DNA of 26,343 nucleotides from a virus. The stretch covers positions 1 through 26,343 of the IMG/VR virus record IMGVR_UViG_3300042292_001106; one strand, 5' to 3'. Shown piece by piece: positions 782-15,886 of this stretch. How positions within the stretch are numbered: the first letter of the stretch is position 1; every line of letters begins with the position of its first letter. Both the position numbers and the translations under genes were made by a program. Below the pieces are notes generated by a model. That model was not told the DNA's origin and did no database searches. It saw only the letters and a program-made list of their open reading frames with translations.

Positions 782-985
782 ATGATACACGAACAAACAG
801 ATCCAGCTAATATTTGGTTAGTACAACATTCATTGAATTCTATTTCACCTGTAGTAACAACCTGGTTGACAACGTCAGGTGGTGTTGAAATGGTTATACC
901 AAGAGAAGTTTCAGTGATAGATGAAGATAACCTTCGAGTCATATTTACCCAACCTCAAACAGGTGCGGCTGTGGTTAACATTTAA
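782..985 (+). CDS. Small single-module virion-type protein (67 aa)
   Basis: A complete small protein that is essentially one copy of the Trp/His module seen twice in the preceding fibre gene. It has IWLVQHSLNSISPVVTTW near the start (W12, H16), a central PREVSVIDEDN segment and an ending like RVIFTQPQTGAAVV. The match to the shared pattern over its whole length is the main evidence that so short a frame is a gene. It begins 45 bases after the preceding stop with only a weak ribosome site (acagaattgat before ATG). It is followed 15 bases later by another single-module protein. It is probably a small structural or fibre-decorating protein; the function is not known. Confidence 0.7.
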   Translation: MIHEQTDPANIWLVQHSLNSISPVVTTWLTTSGGVEMVIPREVSVIDEDNLRVIFTQPQTGAAVVNI

Positions 986-1000
986 TAGGTTCTAAAAATA

Positions 1001-1219
1001 ATGAGTGCTTTTACATACACGCATACGCAAGCATTATCGTCTAATAATTGGACGGTACAACATAATTTAAGTAGTAGATATGTTAATATTGATGTTATTG
1101 TACTGATGGACGGAAAATACCAAACAATTTGGCCTAAATCAGTGTCATTACCAGATGCTAATACAGCTACTGTTATTTTTTCTTCACCTATGACTGGTTT
1201 TGTAAGGGTGGGAGCGTAA
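1001..1219 (+). CDS. Small single-module virion-type protein (72 aa)
   Basis: A second stand-alone copy of the module: FTYTHTQALSSNNWTVQHNL at the N-terminus (W17, H21), WPKSVSLPDANTATVIF in the middle and SSPMTGFVRV at the end. The order of features is the same as in 782-985 and in the fibre gene. A ribosome site (taggttc) lies about 10 bases upstream. The stop codon at 1217-1219 directly abuts the next start at 1220, so the two genes are probably translationally coupled in one structural operon. It is likely a small virion protein. Whether it assembles with the fibre or the three downstream paralogues cannot be read from sequence. Confidence 0.72.
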   Translation: MSAFTYTHTQALSSNNWTVQHNLSSRYVNIDVIVLMDGKYQTIWPKSVSLPDANTATVIFSSPMTGFVRVGA

Positions 1220-2362
1220 ATGCATAATATAGCGAACATTAATGTTACCGGTCAATGTATTATATCGGATGACTTAGGTAATATTATATTAGATAAAACT
1301 AATGCTATTCACCCAATGAACGTTTCACGCGCTTTTGCGAGAGGTTTATCGAACGAACCTAACCAATATATTAAACGATTAGCTTTTGGAAACGGTGGTA
1401 CCTTCGTAGATATAGCTCAAAACATCACTTACAATAACGTCAATGATGGTATATACCCCGATATAGCTGGATATAAATCAAGGTTGTATAATGAGACTTA
1501 TTCGGAAATAGTGGATGAACTAGATAATGTCATAGGTAGTGGTCCAGGAGCATCTAAAAAAGATGACCCTGAAAGTTCACCAAACAGTTTATATGGACCC
1601 GGTGTTGTTAGTGTCGAACAGCAAAACTTAACAACAAAATTATGGAATTCTAAGGTTATAACTACCTGCGTACTTAATCGCAATGAACCAACTAGTCAAT
1701 ATGTTTCAGATCTAAATGGAACTGTCGATGCTGCTAATTCCGTTTTTGAATTCGATGAACTTGGTTTGTTTATTGGTGGAGTTACCTCAGATGTACCGAC
1801 AAGTGGTGTTCAATCGGTGTCATTTATGACACCAAACCTATACGTCAATACAGGGTTAGTAATCAATACTAATTATACACTAACTGTAACCGTTGATAGT
1901 AAAACATTAGCATACCAAATATACACTGACCAAAAATACGCGTATATGACGACAGTAAATAACGTCGATGTCTATACCATTCGTTTTGTTGATTTAGTTA
2001 CATTATTAAATGATTCAATGCCTCAATTAACAGTTACAATGTTAGAAGGTAATGCAATTAATGGTTCGTATTTTGGCTATATGTCTTTTACCAGTAAAAC
2101 AACCGGTATTAACTCAGAAGTTTATATAAAAGAAGAAACCAATAATTCTGATTGGTTATTTGGAAATATTCAATTATTTGCAGGTACAAATGAACCAATT
2201 GCAGGTGTTAGTATAGGTACGCAAAATAACCCTAATGAACCAGCAGCGGAAGCTGCAAGAATGATAACACATTTGATATTTGAACCAATTCGTAAACCAA
2301 TGAATAGAACCTATATTGTTAAATATATTTTAGATATCGTTGTAGCGCAGACAATCAAATGA
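1220..2362 (+). CDS. Tail/baseplate-type structural protein, paralogue 1 of 3 (380 aa)
   Basis: First of three consecutive paralogues. The shared N-terminus (about residues 8-95) has G-x-C-I-I-S-D-D, LDKTNAIHPMNVSRAFARGL, LAFGNGGT, a Tyr/Asn/Asp segment ending NDGIYPDIAG, and LYNETYSE. A second conserved block is FDELGLF (178-184), and a third is ITHLIFEPIRKP (349-360) with a beta strand after it. About 165 residues separate the last two blocks; paralogue 2 has only about 25 there, so a domain seems inserted (about 190-340). The start has a good ribosome site (gggag) and abuts the upstream stop. Its stop overlaps the next start as ATGA. I know this pattern only as an unnamed phage structural family; the baseplate/fibre role is inferred from neighbours. 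Confidence 0.72.
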   Translation: MHNIANINVTGQCIISDDLGNIILDKTNAIHPMNVSRAFARGLSNEPNQYIKRLAFGNGGTFVDIAQNITYNNVNDGIYPDIAGYKSRLYNETYSEIVDELDNVIGSGPGASKKDDPESSPNSLYGPGVVSVEQQNLTTKLWNSKVITTCVLNRNEPTSQYVSDLNGTVDAANSVFEFDELGLFIGGVTSDVPTSGVQSVSFMTPNLYVNTGLVINTNYTLTVTVDSKTLAYQIYTDQKYAYMTTVNNVDVYTIRFVDLVTLLNDSMPQLTVTMLEGNAINGSYFGYMSFTSKTTGINSEVYIKEETNNSDWLFGNIQLFAGTNEPIAGVSIGTQNNPNEPAAEAARMITHLIFEPIRKPMNRTYIVKYILDIVVAQTIK

Positions 2363-4582: not shown

Positions 4583-5031
4583 GCAGGTTTGCCTTTTGTT
4601 GCTTTTGCAACTTGATCAAAAGATGGTGGGTTAGCTGTTGCAACAGGTTCAGGAGTAGATGCTAAATTTTGCTCACCAACTGGAGTGTAATTATAATTAG
4701 TAGCACTGTGTCTATTTGTACCAAACGGTAAAATTGTACCACTGGGTGTAATTTGACGTACTAATTGGTTAAAATAAATTAATGCGTTAACACCATTACC
4801 TAAGGTGTTTTGTTCTAAAACCTTCCACAATTCATCGTATAATGTAGCGTTACGGTTAACAAGAATTGTTTTTAATCGTTGTCTATCGATTGCGTCTAAT
4901 GAATCCAATGTAAAATAGTAAATGTCCCCGTTAGGAAAACGTTTAACAATTGCACATTCTGATAATACACCTGTACCATCTAAATCTAACCATTCAACAA
5001 ATCTATAACGTGACTGCATTGATTGTACCAT
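4579..5031 (-). CDS. Hypothetical phage protein (150 aa)
   Basis: The ATG at 5031 is chosen over the longer in-frame start at 5076 because GGAGAG lies at the right distance before 5031. The protein has a conserved-looking N-terminal part (RYRFVEWLDLDGTG, FPNGDIYYFTLDSLD, ALIYFNQLVRQITPSGTI) and a Pro/Ala/Thr-rich C-terminal tail (PEPVATANPPS) ending in a Lys-rich stretch. No catalytic motif is visible. A perfect T4-late-like TATAAATA box upstream suggests late expression, hence perhaps a virion or assembly role, but this is inference. It is coupled by a 4-base overlap to the small helical protein downstream. Confidence 0.7.
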   Translation of the reverse strand: MVQSMQSRYRFVEWLDLDGTGVLSECAIVKRFPNGDIYYFTLDSLDAIDRQRLKTILVNRNATLYDELWKVLEQNTLGNGVNALIYFNQLVRQITPSGTILPFGTNRHSATNYNYTPVGEQNLASTPEPVATANPPSFDQVAKATKGKPA

Positions 5032-5082
5032 AATAATAACTCTCCAATAAATATATTTTTTAAAATTTGTTATCAAAAATTT

Positions 5083-5090
5083 TATTTATA
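5083..5090 (-). promoter_or_regulatory. T4-type late promoter box
   Basis: The minus strand reads TATAAATA exactly, the T4 late promoter consensus, with no sigma70-like -35 needed. It lies about 52 bases upstream of the start at 5031 and its ribosome site. The gp55-like late sigma gene in this window makes a late-promoter reading reasonable. Confidence 0.6.
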
Positions 5091-5144
5091 TACGTATTTT
5101 TTTGGGTTGTTGAAATATGTTATTGATTCATAAGGGTATTAAAA

Positions 5145-5447
5145 ATGGAAACTTTTCTTCACACACATTATTATTTGCTGTTTGTTGTTAGTGTTGCAGC
5201 AGGTATGATTTCTCATTATGTAAAAAAACGTGCTAAAGCTGAAACAGCAGTTTCATTACAAGACTGGTTTGGAAGTATTAATATATTTGGTACTATTGCA
5301 TCATTTGCGACATCAATGTTAGCGACATTGAGCGCTATTTCAGCAGACTTAGTAACACCTGAAATGAGTCTAACAACAATAATGTATATTGGACTCACAA
5401 CAGGCTACGCTGCTGACTCTGCAGCAAATAGCGATAAAGCTGAATAA
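5145..5447 (+). CDS. Small membrane protein, possible holin-like (100 aa)
   Basis: Three hydrophobic segments can be seen at about residues 7-23, 45-66 and 74-92. A basic loop (HYVKKRAKAE) follows the first. The C-terminal segment TTGYAADSAANSDKAE resembles the ends of short phage membrane proteins often annotated as putative holins. Size and topology would fit, but no lysis partner is adjacent. The start is preceded by aaggg at good spacing. It stands alone on the + strand between minus-strand genes, so it needs its own promoter in the AT-rich gap 5032-5144. Membrane location is well supported by composition; the holin role is speculative. Confidence 0.65.
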   Translation: METFLHTHYYLLFVVSVAAGMISHYVKKRAKAETAVSLQDWFGSINIFGTIASFATSMLATLSAISADLVTPEMSLTTIMYIGLTTGYAADSAANSDKAE

Positions 5448-5448
5448 A

Positions 5449-6462
5449 CTATTTTAAACTTAACATTGGTATAATGTAATCTAGATTTTTACTCAAATAT
5501 CGTAATTGATTTTTATTGAGCATTTTTGTGAATCTAAATCTATCAAAATTCCTGTTTGTATTAAACTCATTTTGAATAGTGTTAAACATAATTTCTTGAA
5601 CATGTGGTGGTTGGTAAGTTAAGTTAGTTAATATTTTATTCTCATCAAATATCTTACCTACCACCATTATTCTTCCTTCATGGTCGGTCCATTCACAATT
5701 CATTAGATTAGTATGTTTGTATGGATCTTCAAATGCTTCTCTGATTTTTTTTGATCTATATCTTGGAAACGCTGATAATACATTATCACCGGAATCACCT
5801 CGCATATATTTGTGATACAAATAATAATCAACACTATCATATCCATTATTCTCTAATGTACGGTACTTCATTGTAGCTGGATCGACTAGTTTAACACGAT
5901 CATACCTCATTAACTGAATCATATCCTTATCAGAACTAACAATCGTGATATCATGATTGTCAATCAATTCGACAGGTATGCTACCATTATCAGTTGCTTG
6001 ATCGTCTCCACCGTAAACTCTACATACACCAGCTATTAGATCATCAGCTTCTAATAAATTCGCTGATAAACATACCATTGCTGTCGTATCACGTAACAGT
6101 TGTTCAAAATCTACAGTAAATTTTTTGAACATTTGGTACATCTTCTGTTCGTTAGGTGACATTGACTGACGACGGTTACCTTTATAAGCACGTTGACTAT
6201 AGCAATCATCAGATTTAGAGTAATCATCTCTCCAATTGAATCTGTCAAAGACGCATACCATTTTTGTTGGTTTTAGTTCTTTGTAAAATTTGTTTAATGA
6301 TAAGATAGATGTATGAAGCGCATGTCGTACTTGAATATCATCTTGTTCTTCTTCCGTCATTGTGTTTTTAATAAAAAAAGGAGTACCATGACCCGCATCT
6401 TTTTTTGCAAAAAACGATTTATACAAGACGTTAGACATATCTAATACGAGTAAATGATTCAT
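5449..6462 (-). CDS. rnh: RNase H / 5'-3' FEN-family nuclease (T4 Rnh-like)
   Basis: It carries the PIN/FEN metal-binding signature in order: LLVLDMSNVLYKSFF with D8, VCVFDRFNWRDDY with D73 followed by RAYKGNRR, LLEADDLIAG (E138, D140, D141), IVSSDKDMIQL (D178, D180) and RGDSGDN (D223, D226). In T4 the homologous enzyme removes RNA primers and nearby DNA from Okazaki fragments and works with the replisome. The length (337 aa) is close to T4 RNase H (about 305). The start overlaps the upstream stop by one base (TAATG). It lies at the promoter-distal end of a minus-strand run that also encodes the sliding clamp, in keeping with a lagging-strand role. All acidic residues expected for catalysis are present. 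Confidence 0.88.
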   Translation of the reverse strand: MNHLLVLDMSNVLYKSFFAKKDAGHGTPFFIKNTMTEEEQDDIQVRHALHTSILSLNKFYKELKPTKMVCVFDRFNWRDDYSKSDDCYSQRAYKGNRRQSMSPNEQKMYQMFKKFTVDFEQLLRDTTAMVCLSANLLEADDLIAGVCRVYGGDDQATDNGSIPVELIDNHDITIVSSDKDMIQLMRYDRVKLVDPATMKYRTLENNGYDSVDYYLYHKYMRGDSGDNVLSAFPRYRSKKIREAFEDPYKHTNLMNCEWTDHEGRIMVVGKIFDENKILTNLTYQPPHVQEIMFNTIQNEFNTNRNFDRFRFTKMLNKNQLRYLSKNLDYIIPMLSLK

Positions 6463-8460: not shown

Positions 8461-11400
8461 CTAAAAATTAAATAATTCATCAGCATGCACAGTTTGTGCT
8501 GTTGGCACTGATACGTCAATAGCTTTTAATATATTTTGCAACGGGTTATCAACTAACCTTGATAGTTGTTTTGTTTTGTCGATTTGAGGTACGAAGTTTT
8601 CCATAAACCAATCAGGTATGTGTTCAATATCAGATGGTAACGCGATTGAAGTGAACTTACCTAACATCTTGGTTTTTAAATAGTAAACACGAATTTTCAT
8701 ACCAGATGTTATTATTTCTGTATCGTTATCTCCGTATTCCTTTAACCTTTCATTAAAATGCAACGCTGCTGCTACGTTACCGGGTAATCTCGCTTTTACG
8801 CCATCAACACGATATACCATTTCGTATTTTTCAAGATTATTAACATTCTTTGGTAATCCAACATCTACTAGATTATCAAATGCCATTAATCCTTCTTTAT
8901 AGTTGACGATATCAATAGCTATCGTACTCCAATCTTCACCATATAATAACCGTCTAATAAAGTCTGTAAGTTTAGCTGAAATAATTTTTGGTAATGTTGT
9001 CTTTTTAATATCAAGACCCATAATTTTCATTTTATCAACAGTTTCACCTTCATTATCTACAACATGTAAGATGTATCTTTTCTTTTCAACAAATAACCCA
9101 TGGTCACTTACAACTTCACGTCCACATTTTACTTGTAAGTCGTATTCTGGTTGACAATGAAACGCTTTTCTCATAAATGCTGGGTATGATTGATTTACAG
9201 CTTCTGCTACTGCATCAGCAAATTCGATAGCTTCTTCTTTATTGTTTGCTGGCACTGTAAAATATGTCGAATCTGTGTCACCATAGACTACAACCTGAGA
9301 AGAAAATTCACCATTGAATTTAGGACCATCTAAAGCCATCTCATGTGTTACAAAACCAGGATGATAATATTCTTTATGATCTAAATCTACTAAATCAGCT
9401 AATGATGCAGGCTGTACTGTACTACTATCATCTTCAATCTCATCAGTAAATTCAAATTCGCCGTCTTCTTCTGCTAAACGCTTACTCGTTTCTTTATTAA
9501 TGTTATCAATAATAGCCATACTTTCGTAAATAGGAAAATCAATATAGTATTCACCGTCGATAATATAGTTAGTCTGCCTACATTGATGTCTTAAAATTTG
9601 GCGACTAGTACCTGTGGTCGATTCACCTAACTCTAATCTGAAAAACCTGAAATTGTAGTTACTTAAACAACCATAAGTTGAGTTTAATTTAATTTTGAAA
9701 ATGTATTGTAATCGGTTGTAATACTTAGACTTTTCTGTAATTTCAAAATACTGATCTTTATCATAATCAGTTCTTTCTACAGCATGACCTGACGAGAAAT
9801 CATATTTTAAAGCTTCTGCCTCTTTAACATACTTTCTCATTTCAGCTTGAAACACTTTGCGTTGTGAATACCATTTAGCTAATAATGAAGGAATAATACC
9901 TAACTCTTTCTGTGTAAATACTGTTCCATAACCACTTACAGCCCAACATTGTTCTGCGAAATAATCAACCCATTCTTGAGTTTTCTTTGTTTCATATGAA
10001 CCATTATCATACTTAATAGTAATATCATCTTCAATACCTTCAAAGATTTTAGTCCAATCTTTAATATTATTTTCAAATTGTCCAATAACAGTTTCAGGAC
10101 TAATATTAATAGCTCGAATTGCTGATGGGTAAAGTGAATTTATATCAATAGAACAAATCCATTTATGCAAACCTCTTTGAGGAAATAATACATAAGCTCC
10201 TTGAATTTTACCGTCTCTTGTATCCCATCTATCAGGAACGATTCTATCGATCTCATAATGACAATAATTAACGATTGCATTATCTACCATTCGTACCGTA
10301 CCAAAGATATGATTAAACTGATTAGTACTAGAATGAATCATATCATTTGCTAACTGAATATAAGTTAGCTTTGTTTCAAAACCTTTTAGAATCTCCGTAT
10401 CACGAACATTGTATCGTAAAAAATGATTAAAATCGTTTGTATATAGCTGTTCTAATGAACCAGGGTATGTTAGTTTTTTAAGATGAGGTAAGTGATCTTC
10501 AGCTACAGACTCCAATTTAAAGCTAGCACGTTCACCACCTTCAAACTTCTTAAATAGTTCAAGGTAATCAAGTTGAACACGACCGCTATAATCTACACGT
10601 AATTGTTTAGCACCTTTGACAAATAATTCTCGAAACATTGGTGTATTAGCACCTTCGAAACTTAATCGTTTGAATTGATCAGCTCCTAATACCATTTCGA
10701 TACGTCTTGCTACATATGGATCATCGAAACCATTTGAATTATGAGTTTCAATACCATTACATACGAAATAATCTTTCTCTGTCATTATATCATACATCGT
10801 AACGTCTTCCAACTGCTCTATGCTACGAATTTTCACTATAATATAATCATCTGTTACAAATTTACGTAACCGTTTTGACGATGAGTTACTAATCGATACA
10901 GGTTCAATTTTGTTTTCAATGTGTGATTTACGTTTAGGGTGTATTAAACTCAAACTATCATATAAATGTTTGTTTGTTTCATAATTTGGTATAGCTAATG
11001 ATGTTGACCCACACCCGGATACATATACATCGTTCCATAATAATAATTTGTTCATCGTAAACATATCATTATTATAGTTGCATAAATTGATGGCTCCAAC
11101 CTCTTGTGTAATCCAACCATCTCCATCAACAAAACCACTAAAAAATGCGGTAAATTGGGTAAATGATAACCTTGATAATAAAGTAACATCTAAACGCTTA
11201 TGCCTGTTTGAGTAAATCATCATATGCAGAAATGAGAATTTGTTACTTGCGGGTATACCTCTATAGTAACAACCATCTCTACTAGGTTTGAGATCCAAAT
11301 TTAGTTTATTAACTAAGTTTTCATTAAAAGCAACATTCGTATAGTGTTGCATAACTTCAATATACTTGTTACACATACTATACTTTTTATCGTAATTTGA

Positions 11401-12882
11401 ATAAAATCCGTCTGTATATATGAACCCTAGCAATTGAAGTATATCTTTTGATATCACTTCATTTGGGTTCATTTCATACATTGTGGTTTTACCACTATCT
11501 ACTGTCTTAAAGTATACAATATCATCTCGTAACCATTCATGAACCATTTCTTTTGGTATTGTACTGTATACATCGTTTAACCTAATAGCTAATTTTTTCC
11601 GTTTAGCGTAAACATTCTCATCATTAATGATAGTTTTGATTGTTTCAGGTACACAACTAAGTATTTGTTCAATCAACGATTCAGTATGAATGTAGATCTC
11701 AACACCCGATTCAAAAAGCTGTTCAAAATGATCTATTATCAAATCACGGTAGGTGAGGTCTCGGTTTACGTTTTTATGACGATGCATCATAACGTAAACA
11801 TCAGTATCACTATCATTCACGAGATCTACCACTTCATGTAACGGTAAGTCTTGTTTTGTTTTTAACAAATTACCTAAGCTTGAATAGTTCGTATGGTTTT
11901 TAGTAAATACAGGAAATACGTGATCGGCTGAGGTTTCAACAATAGTACCTGTATATGTTGTTAACCTATACGATTTTTTAACACCTGTGTTTTTATGTGC
12001 TCGTATAGTTCCATGCATCATGGTTTGTTGACCAGCTTTTACCGATTTTATTGGTAAAATTCTATCTGATAAGAATACACTTTCGTTTTCAGATACACAG
12101 TTCCAACCAGACAGCAAACTTGCGTCTTCTATCTCATCAAGATAAGCTAATAACAGCTCTTTTTCGTTTTTATAAAATCTAATTTCAGTTAATTCATGTA
12201 AAGATTGATCAATTGTGCTGAGATCAAAACCCGGAGGGGGTACTGCCATTACGATCGACTTATCTAACCATTGCTTGTATATTGATACTGCATTGATTGG
12301 TGCATATGGATTTAGAGGACTACTAAAACCAACAGGACCTTCATAAGCTAAGCTTGAATGCGGGTATAATTTCCAATACTTATTTTTTGGATCGTAAACT
12401 TCAATTGTTAATTGTTGTTTAGCTGATAAGTTGCGTATCTCACCTATCGGTGTATCAATTACTTTTTCAGTTCCAACCATTCTTGCTTTTGCTACAAAAT
12501 CATCTCCATACGAGATAGTTTTGTAATCTACTTCGATATCATACAGAAGAACGTTTAATGTAGCTGATGGTTTTTCGTAATAATGTTTTGATAGAACTTT
12601 TGTATCTGGTGAAATATCAGATTCATATAACTTCAGATTTTTTTCTGTTAGTAGGTATTTTCTAGCTTGTCTGAACTCTGTATATGTATCAAACTCATAC
12701 TTTGTGAGCTTTTCATTAAAAACACTTGTAAACTCACCGTCGTCTTTTTTAACATAAAACTCAAAAACTCCTGGATGTCGTTTAAGTGTGTTTTTACCGT
12801 CAATACATTCCCATACAAGAACTTCATCGCTATTGATGAAGCCTCTGTCATCACGTTTCATTATAGCGCTAATATAAGTCAT
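8461..12882 (-). CDS. 43: Family-B replicative DNA polymerase with in-frame intein (1473 aa precursor)
   Basis: The host protein has exonuclease motif I LLYDIEV (D115, E117), motif II split by an intein (GWN at 259-261 and SNGFDDPYVARR from 716) and motif III YNVRDTE (D828). The polymerase motifs are A (SIDINSLYPS, D913), B (KIKLNSTYG, about 1063-1071) and C (VYGDTDS, D1202 and D1204), with KKRY at 1267-1270. Without the intein (C262-N715) it is 1019 residues, somewhat longer than T4 gp43 (898). The C-terminus ends ELFNF, like the acidic/Phe clamp-binding tail of T4 gp43. All catalytic residues are present, so spliced protein should polymerise and proofread. GAGG precedes the ATG. The clamp gene follows 10 bases downstream and a small gene lies just upstream. 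Confidence 0.95.
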   Translation of the reverse strand: MTYISAIMKRDDRGFINSDEVLVWECIDGKNTLKRHPGVFEFYVKKDDGEFTSVFNEKLTKYEFDTYTEFRQARKYLLTEKNLKLYESDISPDTKVLSKHYYEKPSATLNVLLYDIEVDYKTISYGDDFVAKARMVGTEKVIDTPIGEIRNLSAKQQLTIEVYDPKNKYWKLYPHSSLAYEGPVGFSSPLNPYAPINAVSIYKQWLDKSIVMAVPPPGFDLSTIDQSLHELTEIRFYKNEKELLLAYLDEIEDASLLSGWNCVSENESVFLSDRILPIKSVKAGQQTMMHGTIRAHKNTGVKKSYRLTTYTGTIVETSADHVFPVFTKNHTNYSSLGNLLKTKQDLPLHEVVDLVNDSDTDVYVMMHRHKNVNRDLTYRDLIIDHFEQLFESGVEIYIHTESLIEQILSCVPETIKTIINDENVYAKRKKLAIRLNDVYSTIPKEMVHEWLRDDIVYFKTVDSGKTTMYEMNPNEVISKDILQLLGFIYTDGFYSNYDKKYSMCNKYIEVMQHYTNVAFNENLVNKLNLDLKPSRDGCYYRGIPASNKFSFLHMMIYSNRHKRLDVTLLSRLSFTQFTAFFSGFVDGDGWITQEVGAINLCNYNNDMFTMNKLLLWNDVYVSGCGSTSLAIPNYETNKHLYDSLSLIHPKRKSHIENKIEPVSISNSSSKRLRKFVTDDYIIVKIRSIEQLEDVTMYDIMTEKDYFVCNGIETHNSNGFDDPYVARRIEMVLGADQFKRLSFEGANTPMFRELFVKGAKQLRVDYSGRVQLDYLELFKKFEGGERASFKLESVAEDHLPHLKKLTYPGSLEQLYTNDFNHFLRYNVRDTEILKGFETKLTYIQLANDMIHSSTNQFNHIFGTVRMVDNAIVNYCHYEIDRIVPDRWDTRDGKIQGAYVLFPQRGLHKWICSIDINSLYPSAIRAINISPETVIGQFENNIKDWTKIFEGIEDDITIKYDNGSYETKKTQEWVDYFAEQCWAVSGYGTVFTQKELGIIPSLLAKWYSQRKVFQAEMRKYVKEAEALKYDFSSGHAVERTDYDKDQYFEITEKSKYYNRLQYIFKIKLNSTYGCLSNYNFRFFRLELGESTTGTSRQILRHQCRQTNYIIDGEYYIDFPIYESMAIIDNINKETSKRLAEEDGEFEFTDEIEDDSSTVQPASLADLVDLDHKEYYHPGFVTHEMALDGPKFNGEFSSQVVVYGDTDSTYFTVPANNKEEAIEFADAVAEAVNQSYPAFMRKAFHCQPEYDLQVKCGREVVSDHGLFVEKKRYILHVVDNEGETVDKMKIMGLDIKKTTLPKIISAKLTDFIRRLLYGEDWSTIAIDIVNYKEGLMAFDNLVDVGLPKNVNNLEKYEMVYRVDGVKARLPGNVAAALHFNERLKEYGDNDTEIITSGMKIRVYYLKTKMLGKFTSIALPSDIEHIPDWFMENFVPQIDKTKQLSRLVDNPLQNILKAIDVSVPTAQTVHADELFNF
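10738..12099 (-). other. Intein with LAGLIDADG homing endonuclease in the DNA polymerase (454 aa)
   Basis: The element runs from C262 to N715 of the precursor. The N-terminal splicing block begins CVSENESVFLSDR. Block B is GTIVETSADHVFPVF. The C-terminal block is MYDIMTEKDYFVCNGIETHN, with the expected penultimate His and terminal Asn, followed by Ser+1 of the host. Two LAGLIDADG-type motifs lie in between: LLGFIYTDGF (about 484-493) and FSGFVDGDGWI (about 581-591), each with an acidic residue in the catalytic place. All splicing residues look intact. The insertion splits exonuclease motif II between GWN and SNGFDDPY. The boundaries are exact on the standard C...HN/S rule. Confidence 0.93.
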
Positions 12883-13480: not shown

Positions 13481-15886
13481 CTACCTAGCTTTGTAGAATG
13501 GATCCACTGCATATTTTGGAAAGTTTTTCCGTTTATTTAACCATGTACCTGCATCTTGAACTCGAATACCACCTGCACTTGATGCTGATTCAGATATCTG
13601 CAATTTACCTGTATTTGGATCTTGGATAACTTGTACAATGTGGTCGATACCTTTGTATCTTCCTGCGCCTGTACTTCCTGCGCCATAATCAACGCCAATT
13701 ACCATACCTGGTTTGAGGTTATCAGTATTAACACTTGATCCTGTTAGCTCTTGACCAGATGCATTACCGACAGTTTGTACAATACCAGCAGCTGTATTAC
13801 CCTTTTTCATTAAGTTGTAGCCATCTGTGATATTTGGATCATTTGCATTAGCAGCAGCTTCTTTAGTGTTTGCTAAAACCCAACCTGAACAATCAACTTT
13901 ACCAGAATTTGGGTCTCTAGCTCCCAATTCATATTTTACACCTTTATCGAGTGCGTTATTAGTACCTGATACTAAACTATCATTTAATGATTTAGTACTT
14001 CCTGTACCTCTTGTACCTGATGGTACTTGCGTATCATTTGTTGATGGTGTAGTCGATGATGATGGTAATTCATCAACAGTTTGAGGTTTATAAGTACCAC
14101 CATGCTGTTCGTACCATTTTAATAATGTAGCTTCACTATGCGCTTTTAATGATGACCATGTCCCTGGTAATTTTCTAATCGCTTCAGCTGGTTTACCTTG
14201 TACAACAAGATCATAAGCACCTTTTGATTTCATTAATGATATAGCCATGCGATCTTGCGAACTAGGTGAAAAATCACCACCACATGATGCTTTTAGTCCA
14301 TCAAATGTACCAACGAGAATTTGGTATTTACCAGCAGGTGTATGTTTCGTACCGCTAGTCGACCATGGTTTAACATGCCATGGATGTGTCGCATAACCTT
14401 CAAATAATACACCGGTCCATCGTACGTTATAACCATTATCGCCGCGACCGTATGTACCTTCAGCATGAGATAACATTTCTAAGAACGCTTTTACATTAGC
14501 TCCTTTTGTTTCATTAATCGCGCTATCTGCTGGTTTGCTAACTGACGTAGATTTTTTTGGTGGGTTCTTACCAGCTATAGTACCTTCTTTTGTATTAGAT
14601 TGGTCTGCCATTGACTGTAATTCTAGGAATTGAACAAACTCACCTTTTGTAAATTTACTTGTTATTTTCTTAATTGTAAAATGAAGTTTATCCATCCAAA
14701 ACGGGGTACTATAAAAATTATCATTATCACCTAATATCGCACCTTGCATATATGAAGGTTTCGGTGATCTAATATTAATACGAACTTTTAATAGCCCGGA
14801 TTGATTTGCTCCTGTTTTTGCTGCATGTTCATCTTTTTTTGCTTTCACTGCTGATGGAGATGGATCAGAGTACGTATCCGAAGGTAGTACATAACCTGCA
14901 AGCAATAAAGGATTACCAACAATTTTCAATGTACTGTTTGTACTCGTTAGCATATTAGAGATTTGATCAGATATGTTCTTTCTTGCAGCAAATAACGTTT
15001 CTGGACTTAATGATCCGCTACCTGTACGTAGCGGATCAACTGTTGTTAATCCAACATGATCGTTAGGGGTATCAGCTAATATGCTATTAGATCGTACTCT
15101 CGATGTAGAAGTATCTCTTGCTTCACCAGCATTTGTGTTGGGTTTTTTATTTGTTGTGGTCTCATTATCTGGTAATATATCTTTATTGGTGTTGCTTGCT
15201 GTTGGGTGCACAACTTGAATAGATTTTAATGAATTGAAAGCTAATTTCACATTCATATCAAATTGTATTACATCTACATTAACACCTGTGTAGATGTAAT
15301 CATATTCGAGTACATCAGGTAATTTTGAAAAATCTTCAGCTTGTTGATTAGATTGTGCTGTAGTTCCGCCGTTGGTACCTGTACTTGAGCTGCTACCTGA
15401 GGGTGTTGCTACATCAGCGCCAGGTTTCATAGGTCTTGTGAACTTCTCGATATGGTAAGTAACGATTTGTTCTTTTGTATTAGGATCTGTAGATAACGTA
15501 CTACTGATACGCGGTGCGTATGTTTTTGGGTTGTTTGGATCGGTGTTATCTACGTTCATCATATCTTCATGAACAGCTTTACTCATTAACATGATATTCG
15601 TTAATGCATCTGGTATTTTATCGCCAATAGCTGTTTGAAATATGATTGGATCAGCTTGTTTGGGAACTGATGGTGAGGTACTAGGTGTTAAATTTGGATT
15701 TTGTGAATTTCCTGTGTTGAGATCAGCGGTTGAACCTACTATTTTTAAATCGGTAGACGGTTTAGCATCTATTAGCGATGGTGTTAATTTGGGGTTACCT
15801 ACCGTAGTGTCTGCAGCTGCATCAACCTTATCGTATGCAGATGGTTCAAGTTTAAAATTTGGGTCAAGATTTGATTCACTGGTCAT
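13481..15886 (-). CDS. Baseplate hub protein with lambda R-type muramidase and NlpC/P60 peptidase domains (801 aa)
   Basis: Residues 1-80 are Pro/Thr/Asn-rich linker. About 80-430 looks like a hub/VgrG-type core (LKIVGNPLLLAGYVLP, LLKVRINIRSP, KITSKFTKGEFVQFLELQSM). Residues 463-600 resemble phage lambda endolysin R, a lytic transglycosylase: FLEMLSHAEGTYG with likely catalytic E476, HTPAGKYQILVGTFDG, DFSPSSQDRMAI and the terminal WYEQHGG. After a Ser/Thr/Gly linker (605-635), residues 645-800 look like NlpC/P60: KVDCSGWV with C666, GIDHIVQVI with H749 and a polar third-residue candidate at E766. T4 gp5 carries one lysozyme; here two different activities, glycan and peptide cleavage, are fused. 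No ribosome site precedes the ATG; the upstream stop is five bases away, suggesting re-initiation. Confidence 0.82.
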   Translation of the reverse strand: MTSESNLDPNFKLEPSAYDKVDAAADTTVGNPKLTPSLIDAKPSTDLKIVGSTADLNTGNSQNPNLTPSTSPSVPKQADPIIFQTAIGDKIPDALTNIMLMSKAVHEDMMNVDNTDPNNPKTYAPRISSTLSTDPNTKEQIVTYHIEKFTRPMKPGADVATPSGSSSSTGTNGGTTAQSNQQAEDFSKLPDVLEYDYIYTGVNVDVIQFDMNVKLAFNSLKSIQVVHPTASNTNKDILPDNETTTNKKPNTNAGEARDTSTSRVRSNSILADTPNDHVGLTTVDPLRTGSGSLSPETLFAARKNISDQISNMLTSTNSTLKIVGNPLLLAGYVLPSDTYSDPSPSAVKAKKDEHAAKTGANQSGLLKVRINIRSPKPSYMQGAILGDNDNFYSTPFWMDKLHFTIKKITSKFTKGEFVQFLELQSMADQSNTKEGTIAGKNPPKKSTSVSKPADSAINETKGANVKAFLEMLSHAEGTYGRGDNGYNVRWTGVLFEGYATHPWHVKPWSTSGTKHTPAGKYQILVGTFDGLKASCGGDFSPSSQDRMAISLMKSKGAYDLVVQGKPAEAIRKLPGTWSSLKAHSEATLLKWYEQHGGTYKPQTVDELPSSSTTPSTNDTQVPSGTRGTGSTKSLNDSLVSGTNNALDKGVKYELGARDPNSGKVDCSGWVLANTKEAAANANDPNITDGYNLMKKGNTAAGIVQTVGNASGQELTGSSVNTDNLKPGMVIGVDYGAGSTGAGRYKGIDHIVQVIQDPNTGKLQISESASSAGGIRVQDAGTWLNKRKNFPKYAVDPFYKAR

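Follow-up and report, generated by a model that had tools for sequence, protein, structure and literature searches.

A LAGLIDADG-bearing intein in the exonuclease II motif of a T4-like phage DNA polymerase, and its allelic relatives in uncultured phages and haloarchaea

The stretch of DNA analysed here, hereafter the window, is the 26,343-nucleotide sequence of IMG/VR virus record IMGVR_UViG_3300042292_001106 (positions 1 to 26,343). Its minus strand carries, at 8461..12882 with the stop codon included, a gene for a family-B (T4 gp43-like) DNA polymerase whose frame runs uninterrupted across 1473 amino acids, and within this precursor lies an intein of 454 amino acids (10738..12099; precursor residues 262-715, from Cys1 to His453-Asn454). 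The open reading frame (ORF) matches Pfam DNA_pol_B (2.5e-32) and DNA_pol_B_exo1 (2.5e-7) and can be aligned with RB69 polymerase structures. A preliminary description, made from the sequence alone, had given the same intein coordinates, and these prove exact. That the insert is more than a chance pattern is seen from an empty site in two relatives, from 40 homologues at the same residue and from a predicted fold shared with solved inteins. It had also placed the splice junctions inside exonuclease (exo) motif II, between GWN and SNGFDDPY. Intein-free polymerases from large relatives of T4 (XacN1, CM1, Munch, Phosso, SCTP-2, XaC1 and others) bear this out: in an alignment with them, the insert falls between GWN and S.GFD.PY.

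The same alignment delimits the two exteins, both on the minus strand. The N-extein of 261 amino acids (12100..12882) holds exo I (DIEVD, 12526-12540) and ends with the GWN of exo II (12100-12108). The C-extein of 758 amino acids (8461..10737) starts with Ser+1 of SNGFDDPY (10714-10737), has the exo II Asp at +5, and contains exo III (YNVRDTE, 10393-10413) and the whole polymerase domain, with motif A at 10123-10146, motif B at 9670-9696 and motif C (YGDTDS) at 9268-9285; all exo and pol motifs are intact. In numbering counted off the RB69 alignment, the junction corresponds to N217/V218 and the exo II Asp, C-extein residue 5, to D222. RB69 polymerase has Val at the position equivalent to +1, and Ser stands there in 76/76 intein-free phage polymerases fetched, a sample biased to relatives of the query; the site thus already supplies the nucleophile needed for splicing.

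How complete is the intein? Cys1, His453-Asn454 and Ser+1 are present, which are the nucleophiles and terminal Asn expected of an intein. The family alignment locates, on the minus strand, block B (11914..11961, TTYTGTIVETSADHVF; G51 and S57xxH60, i.e. SADH, with Ser at the usual Thr of TxxH), LAGLIDADG motif 1 (11407..11433, LLGFIYTDG, Asp230 present), LAGLIDADG motif 2 (11116..11142, FSGFVDGDG, Asp327 present), block F (10762..10803, VTMYDIMTEKDYFV, Asp437 present) and block G (10738..10761, CNGIETHN, with the penultimate His and terminal Asn). The earlier statement that all blocks are intact therefore stands for Cys1, the LAGLIDADG pair and HN/Ser+1 and fails in two places, as the block-F His is replaced by Asp and the block-B Thr by Ser; the latter change is shared by 20/21 aligned members. 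An AlphaFold2 model of the window intein, run with 21 family members (pLDDT 89.2, pTM 0.90), shows a HINT splicing domain into which a LAGLIDADG endonuclease is inserted. Among solved structures it comes closest to complete inteins that have LAGLIDADG domains (7qsu, PI-SceI and 2cw7), and comparison with the endonuclease-bearing Tli VMA intein (7qsu) gives a VIA Z of 25.6. In the splicing domain, 123 residues fit the Ssp DnaB mini-intein (1mi8) at 1.2 A (Z 18.5), as a HINT fold should, and residues 214-402 of the model match I-Tsp061I (Z 16.6), the paired LAGLIDADG motifs and their catalytic acidic residues being present. By sequence, the solved structure closest to the splicing domain is that of the gp41-1 intein (6qaz, 51 bits with the family profile). 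Residues and modelled fold together suggest that both the splicing and the endonuclease domains are catalytically active.

Two near relatives, L151 (94% C-extein identity, main piece) and L152 (85%), were recovered from IMG/VR with the C-extein as query. Their polymerases lack the insert and read GWNSGGFDDPYV, an exact empty site GWN/SGGFDDPY. Both carry an intein at motif C, which is empty in the window: in L151 it is contiguous in one ORF (YGD/S...VHN/TDS), and in L152 it is split over two ORFs (YGDTD/S...HN/S).

The intein at exo II belongs to an allelic family. Junction patterns, consisting of HN and Cys, Ser or Thr running into the exo II motif, were scanned over IMG/VR and gave 16 and 13 contigs, almost all true inteins with GWN/C upstream; chance matches, among them L025 and 11 of 23 matches in cellular genomes, were weeded out by translation. 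A scan with an alignment of six inteins gave 35 loci, 33 of them at polymerase exo II. After deduplication the family comprises 41 contigs, i.e. the window and 40 others, with a homologous intein at the identical residue. Full-length inteins are present in 36 of the 41 and form 21 clusters at 90% identity, the window counted. Homology of the window intein to the family extends from end to end, at about 31% identity and E about 1e-50. The full-length inteins start with Cys and end with HN in 36/36 cases, the upstream junction is GWN, GWY or GFN, and the +1 residue is Cys in 36/41 and Ser in 5/41, the window among the latter. Throughout the family, Cys1, HN, the His of block B, the Asp of block F and the motifs TDG and DG.G do not vary. 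The window intein used singly against IMG/VR gave no match; as only junction patterns and an alignment recovered the family, ordinary searches could easily miss it. Isolate phage genomes queried with the window intein and six other members yielded no real homologue, only weak matches (E 0.003-0.07), and in a scan for relatives of the polymerase, none of the 80 stretches kept, out of more than 600, had the insert.

Several phage polymerase genes show other irregularities. The L151 gene (4160-6000) is interrupted by about 1 kb just past exo I, and the interruption contains an HNH-like ORF at 4605-5606 (Pfam HNH, E 0.0012, slightly below cut-off); an intron in this region is unsupported, there being no Rfam intron match. 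The genes of L152 (5203-8793), L013, L022, L121 and L142 are fractured at motif C, with split-intein halves on separate ORFs, and several of these phages also carry the exo II intein. In L108, L111, L114, L115, L119, L120 and L141 the polymerase ORF stops near profile residues 535-555, between motifs A and B, and several have a second polymerase ORF downstream with no intein halves seen, a break reminiscent of gene 43 in Aeromonas phages, which is split. In L004 (Salicola phage SCTP-2), an isolate jumbo phage, an insertion starts directly after the YGD of motif C, YGDSVTHDTIISTNNGEYTI, and has the look of an intein at that motif. The L108 intein (950-1975, minus strand) has DGNG as its second LAGLIDADG motif, with the second catalytic Asp lost and the splicing residues kept, so that one active site of its endonuclease has probably been lost.

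Is the site itself unusual? The preliminary description had set it apart from the familiar insertions in polymerase motifs A, B and C, and this cannot be upheld, by the refutation that it had itself named, a set of close homologues in which the insertion is common: the same residue is occupied in the 40 other phage contigs and in about 6% of haloarchaeal genomes sampled, which makes the site not out of the ordinary. A junction pattern tuned to GC-rich genomes gave 23 loci, 12 of which are haloarchaeal PolB with an intein at that residue (GWN/CLPAD...LVHN/CEDFDVPY), and strong matches were present in 12/194 genomes of the class. These copies came from the junction pattern; the intein-alignment scan of bacterial and archaeal genomes gave no match. 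Haloarchaeal PolB is broken at four sites only, exo II and motifs A, B and C, and four alleles have been published, polB-d (printed first), a, b and c (Soucy et al. 2014; PMC4071816), polB-d with 6 sequences in a survey of 118 genomes (PMC4071816). By elimination, and from table order and a similar frequency, the exo II allele is almost certainly the published polB-d, the text of that paper giving no coordinates. One haloarchaeal copy, L189 in genome G041, has one TGA, one TAG and several fragments, and is apparently a decayed allele or the product of poor assembly.

Has the intein moved between phages? The polymerases of the window and L112 are sisters (support 98/97; 56-57% identical), but their inteins are just 30% identical and the intein data reject the sister grouping (p-AU 0.0008). 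The L112 intein clusters instead with those of L117 and L108 (99/97), a grouping that the polymerase data reject (p-AU 1e-9). Intein and polymerase trees are thus in significant conflict, and inteins have been transferred between phage lineages. A further trace may lie in the flanks of the insert. At third positions, the window is less similar to one empty relative within 180 nucleotides either side of the insert than farther away (identity 69/120 vs 311/420, Fisher p 0.0007), and the comparison with the other empty relative gives 63/120 vs 273/420 (Fisher p 0.014); L151 and L152 compared with each other show no drop near the site (p 0.51). Significance is reached with both sides combined, the downstream side alone giving p 0.06 and 0.15. 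Local divergence of this kind is the expected trace of flanking co-conversion from a divergent donor in homing, and is suggestive of it, not proof. Close intein pairs in one cluster have a dN/dS of about 0.12-0.18. The patchy, exchanged distribution of exo II inteins fits a selfish element.

Taken together, the insert is very probably a cis-splicing intein that houses a LAGLIDADG homing endonuclease and occupies the exo II allele site (polB-d in haloarchaea) in the replicative polymerase of a T4-like phage. The whole precursor would be translated and the HINT domain would then splice, through a Cys1 thioester, transesterification to Ser+1 and cyclisation of Asn454 aided by His453, to leave a polymerase with an intact proofreading motif. 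During mixed infection the endonuclease would cut intein-free polymerase genes at the conserved exo II sequence, and repair would copy the intein into the cut gene with some flanking DNA. Some observations weigh against this interpretation. The block-F His, Asp in the window, is His in 16/21 aligned members; the local divergence rests on two comparisons, and a fast-evolving neighbourhood could explain part of it; and the intein pairs outside the one cluster hold too few changes for a useful dN/dS. Might the block-F change mark a degenerate insert, defective in splicing, and hence a broken polymerase? The Pfam Intein_splicing match, at 24.6 bits against a curated cut-off of 35.8, would agree with this, but Gln, Gly or Ser takes the place of the block-F His in four other members, the essential nucleophiles are all there, and the polymerase frame and its exo and pol motifs are intact, as expected of an essential gene in use, so that a defective insert is scarcely credible. 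It is somewhat easier, though still unlikely, that the intein splices and its endonuclease is already inactive, with persistence by vertical descent only. Decay of this sort occurs in the family, as the DGNG motif of L108 illustrates; in the window, however, both motif Asp residues are kept, the model of the endonuclease domain is a confident one and the local divergence points to a recent arrival.

A different kind of alternative concerns function. Could splicing act as a control? In that case a precursor that splices slowly or not at all, or the product of C-terminal cleavage with its polymerase domain kept, would still polymerise but not proofread, and slow splicing would raise the phage mutation rate (a conditional mutator). 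An intein at motifs A-C would block synthesis itself. Here the junction, in RB69 terms four residues ahead of D222, separates exo I, on the N-extein side, from the exo II Asp, exo III and the complete polymerase domain; with the polymerase domain wholly within the C-extein, the tie between proofreading and splicing raised in the preliminary description is structurally reasonable as read from the gene. Nevertheless, patchy occupancy, intein-free near relatives and exchange between lineages give no sign of selection for control, and nothing known to sense redox state or DNA was identified. A 454-residue insert within the exonuclease domain may also disable the entire enzyme. Inteins in general sit in conserved active sites, which favours their persistence and explains the preference (PMC2814812). 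A role in control is accordingly very improbable. As to origin, the phage inteins might have reached the haloarchaeal polB-d residue by convergence, as a separate allele lineage. Phage and haloarchaeal inteins are indeed far apart and few other inteins were sampled, but the phage profile scores 80-94 bits over three consecutive segments against haloarchaeal exo II inteins and less than 4 bits against the motif A-C inteins of the same haloarchaeal ORFs, and in the tree the exo II inteins of phages and haloarchaea fall in one group, apart from those at motifs A-C (100/99, with long branches and a small sample). Independent invasion is therefore rather doubtful, if less so than the other alternatives.

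Adjoining the polymerase gene on the minus strand (13481-15886) is the gene of an 801-amino-acid protein with no Pfam match at 1e-3; by eye, it has stretches resembling a lysozyme-type domain and an NlpC/P60-type cysteine peptidase.

What is new in these findings? The window intein is a mobile intein of the usual sort, and its site was known to be occupied in haloarchaea. No report of a phage intein at exo II or another exonuclease site was found in the open-access literature, and the phage branch of the exo II allele, with its spread and exchange, appears not to be described in the papers searched. The new element seems to be how widely the allele occurs, and moves, among uncultured T4-like phages, whereas the isolate genomes queried yielded none. 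A site that, as far as was found, is published only as a rare haloarchaeal allele is a recurrent, exchanged one across these phages, with homologous inteins in both. The window, L151 and L152, alike except for the occupied site (exo II vs motif C), form a good natural set for the study of homing and of how intein sites within a single essential gene compete, and an intein in a proofreading site offers a clean test case for effects on mutation rate.

Among known systems, the haloarchaeal exo II intein is like that of the window in its exo II residue, its length of about 450 amino acids, Cys1, the HN terminus and the LAGLIDADG endonuclease; it differs in having a cellular archaeal polymerase as host, in similarity at the profile level only and in a +1 Cys, where the window has Ser. 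Aes123-type PolB inteins also reside in gp43-type polymerases of T4-like phages, but at the motif C site (DTD/SVY), and they are split and cysteine-less (PMC11923092, PMC12707363). The Mimivirus and archaeal pol-c inteins resemble the window intein in bearing LAGLIDADG motifs and in occupying an active-site motif of a family-B polymerase, but that motif is polymerase motif C (YGD/TDS) and not an exonuclease motif (PMC549080). The gp41-1 intein (cyanophage-like), unlike that of the window, is split, has no endonuclease and resides in a helicase gene.

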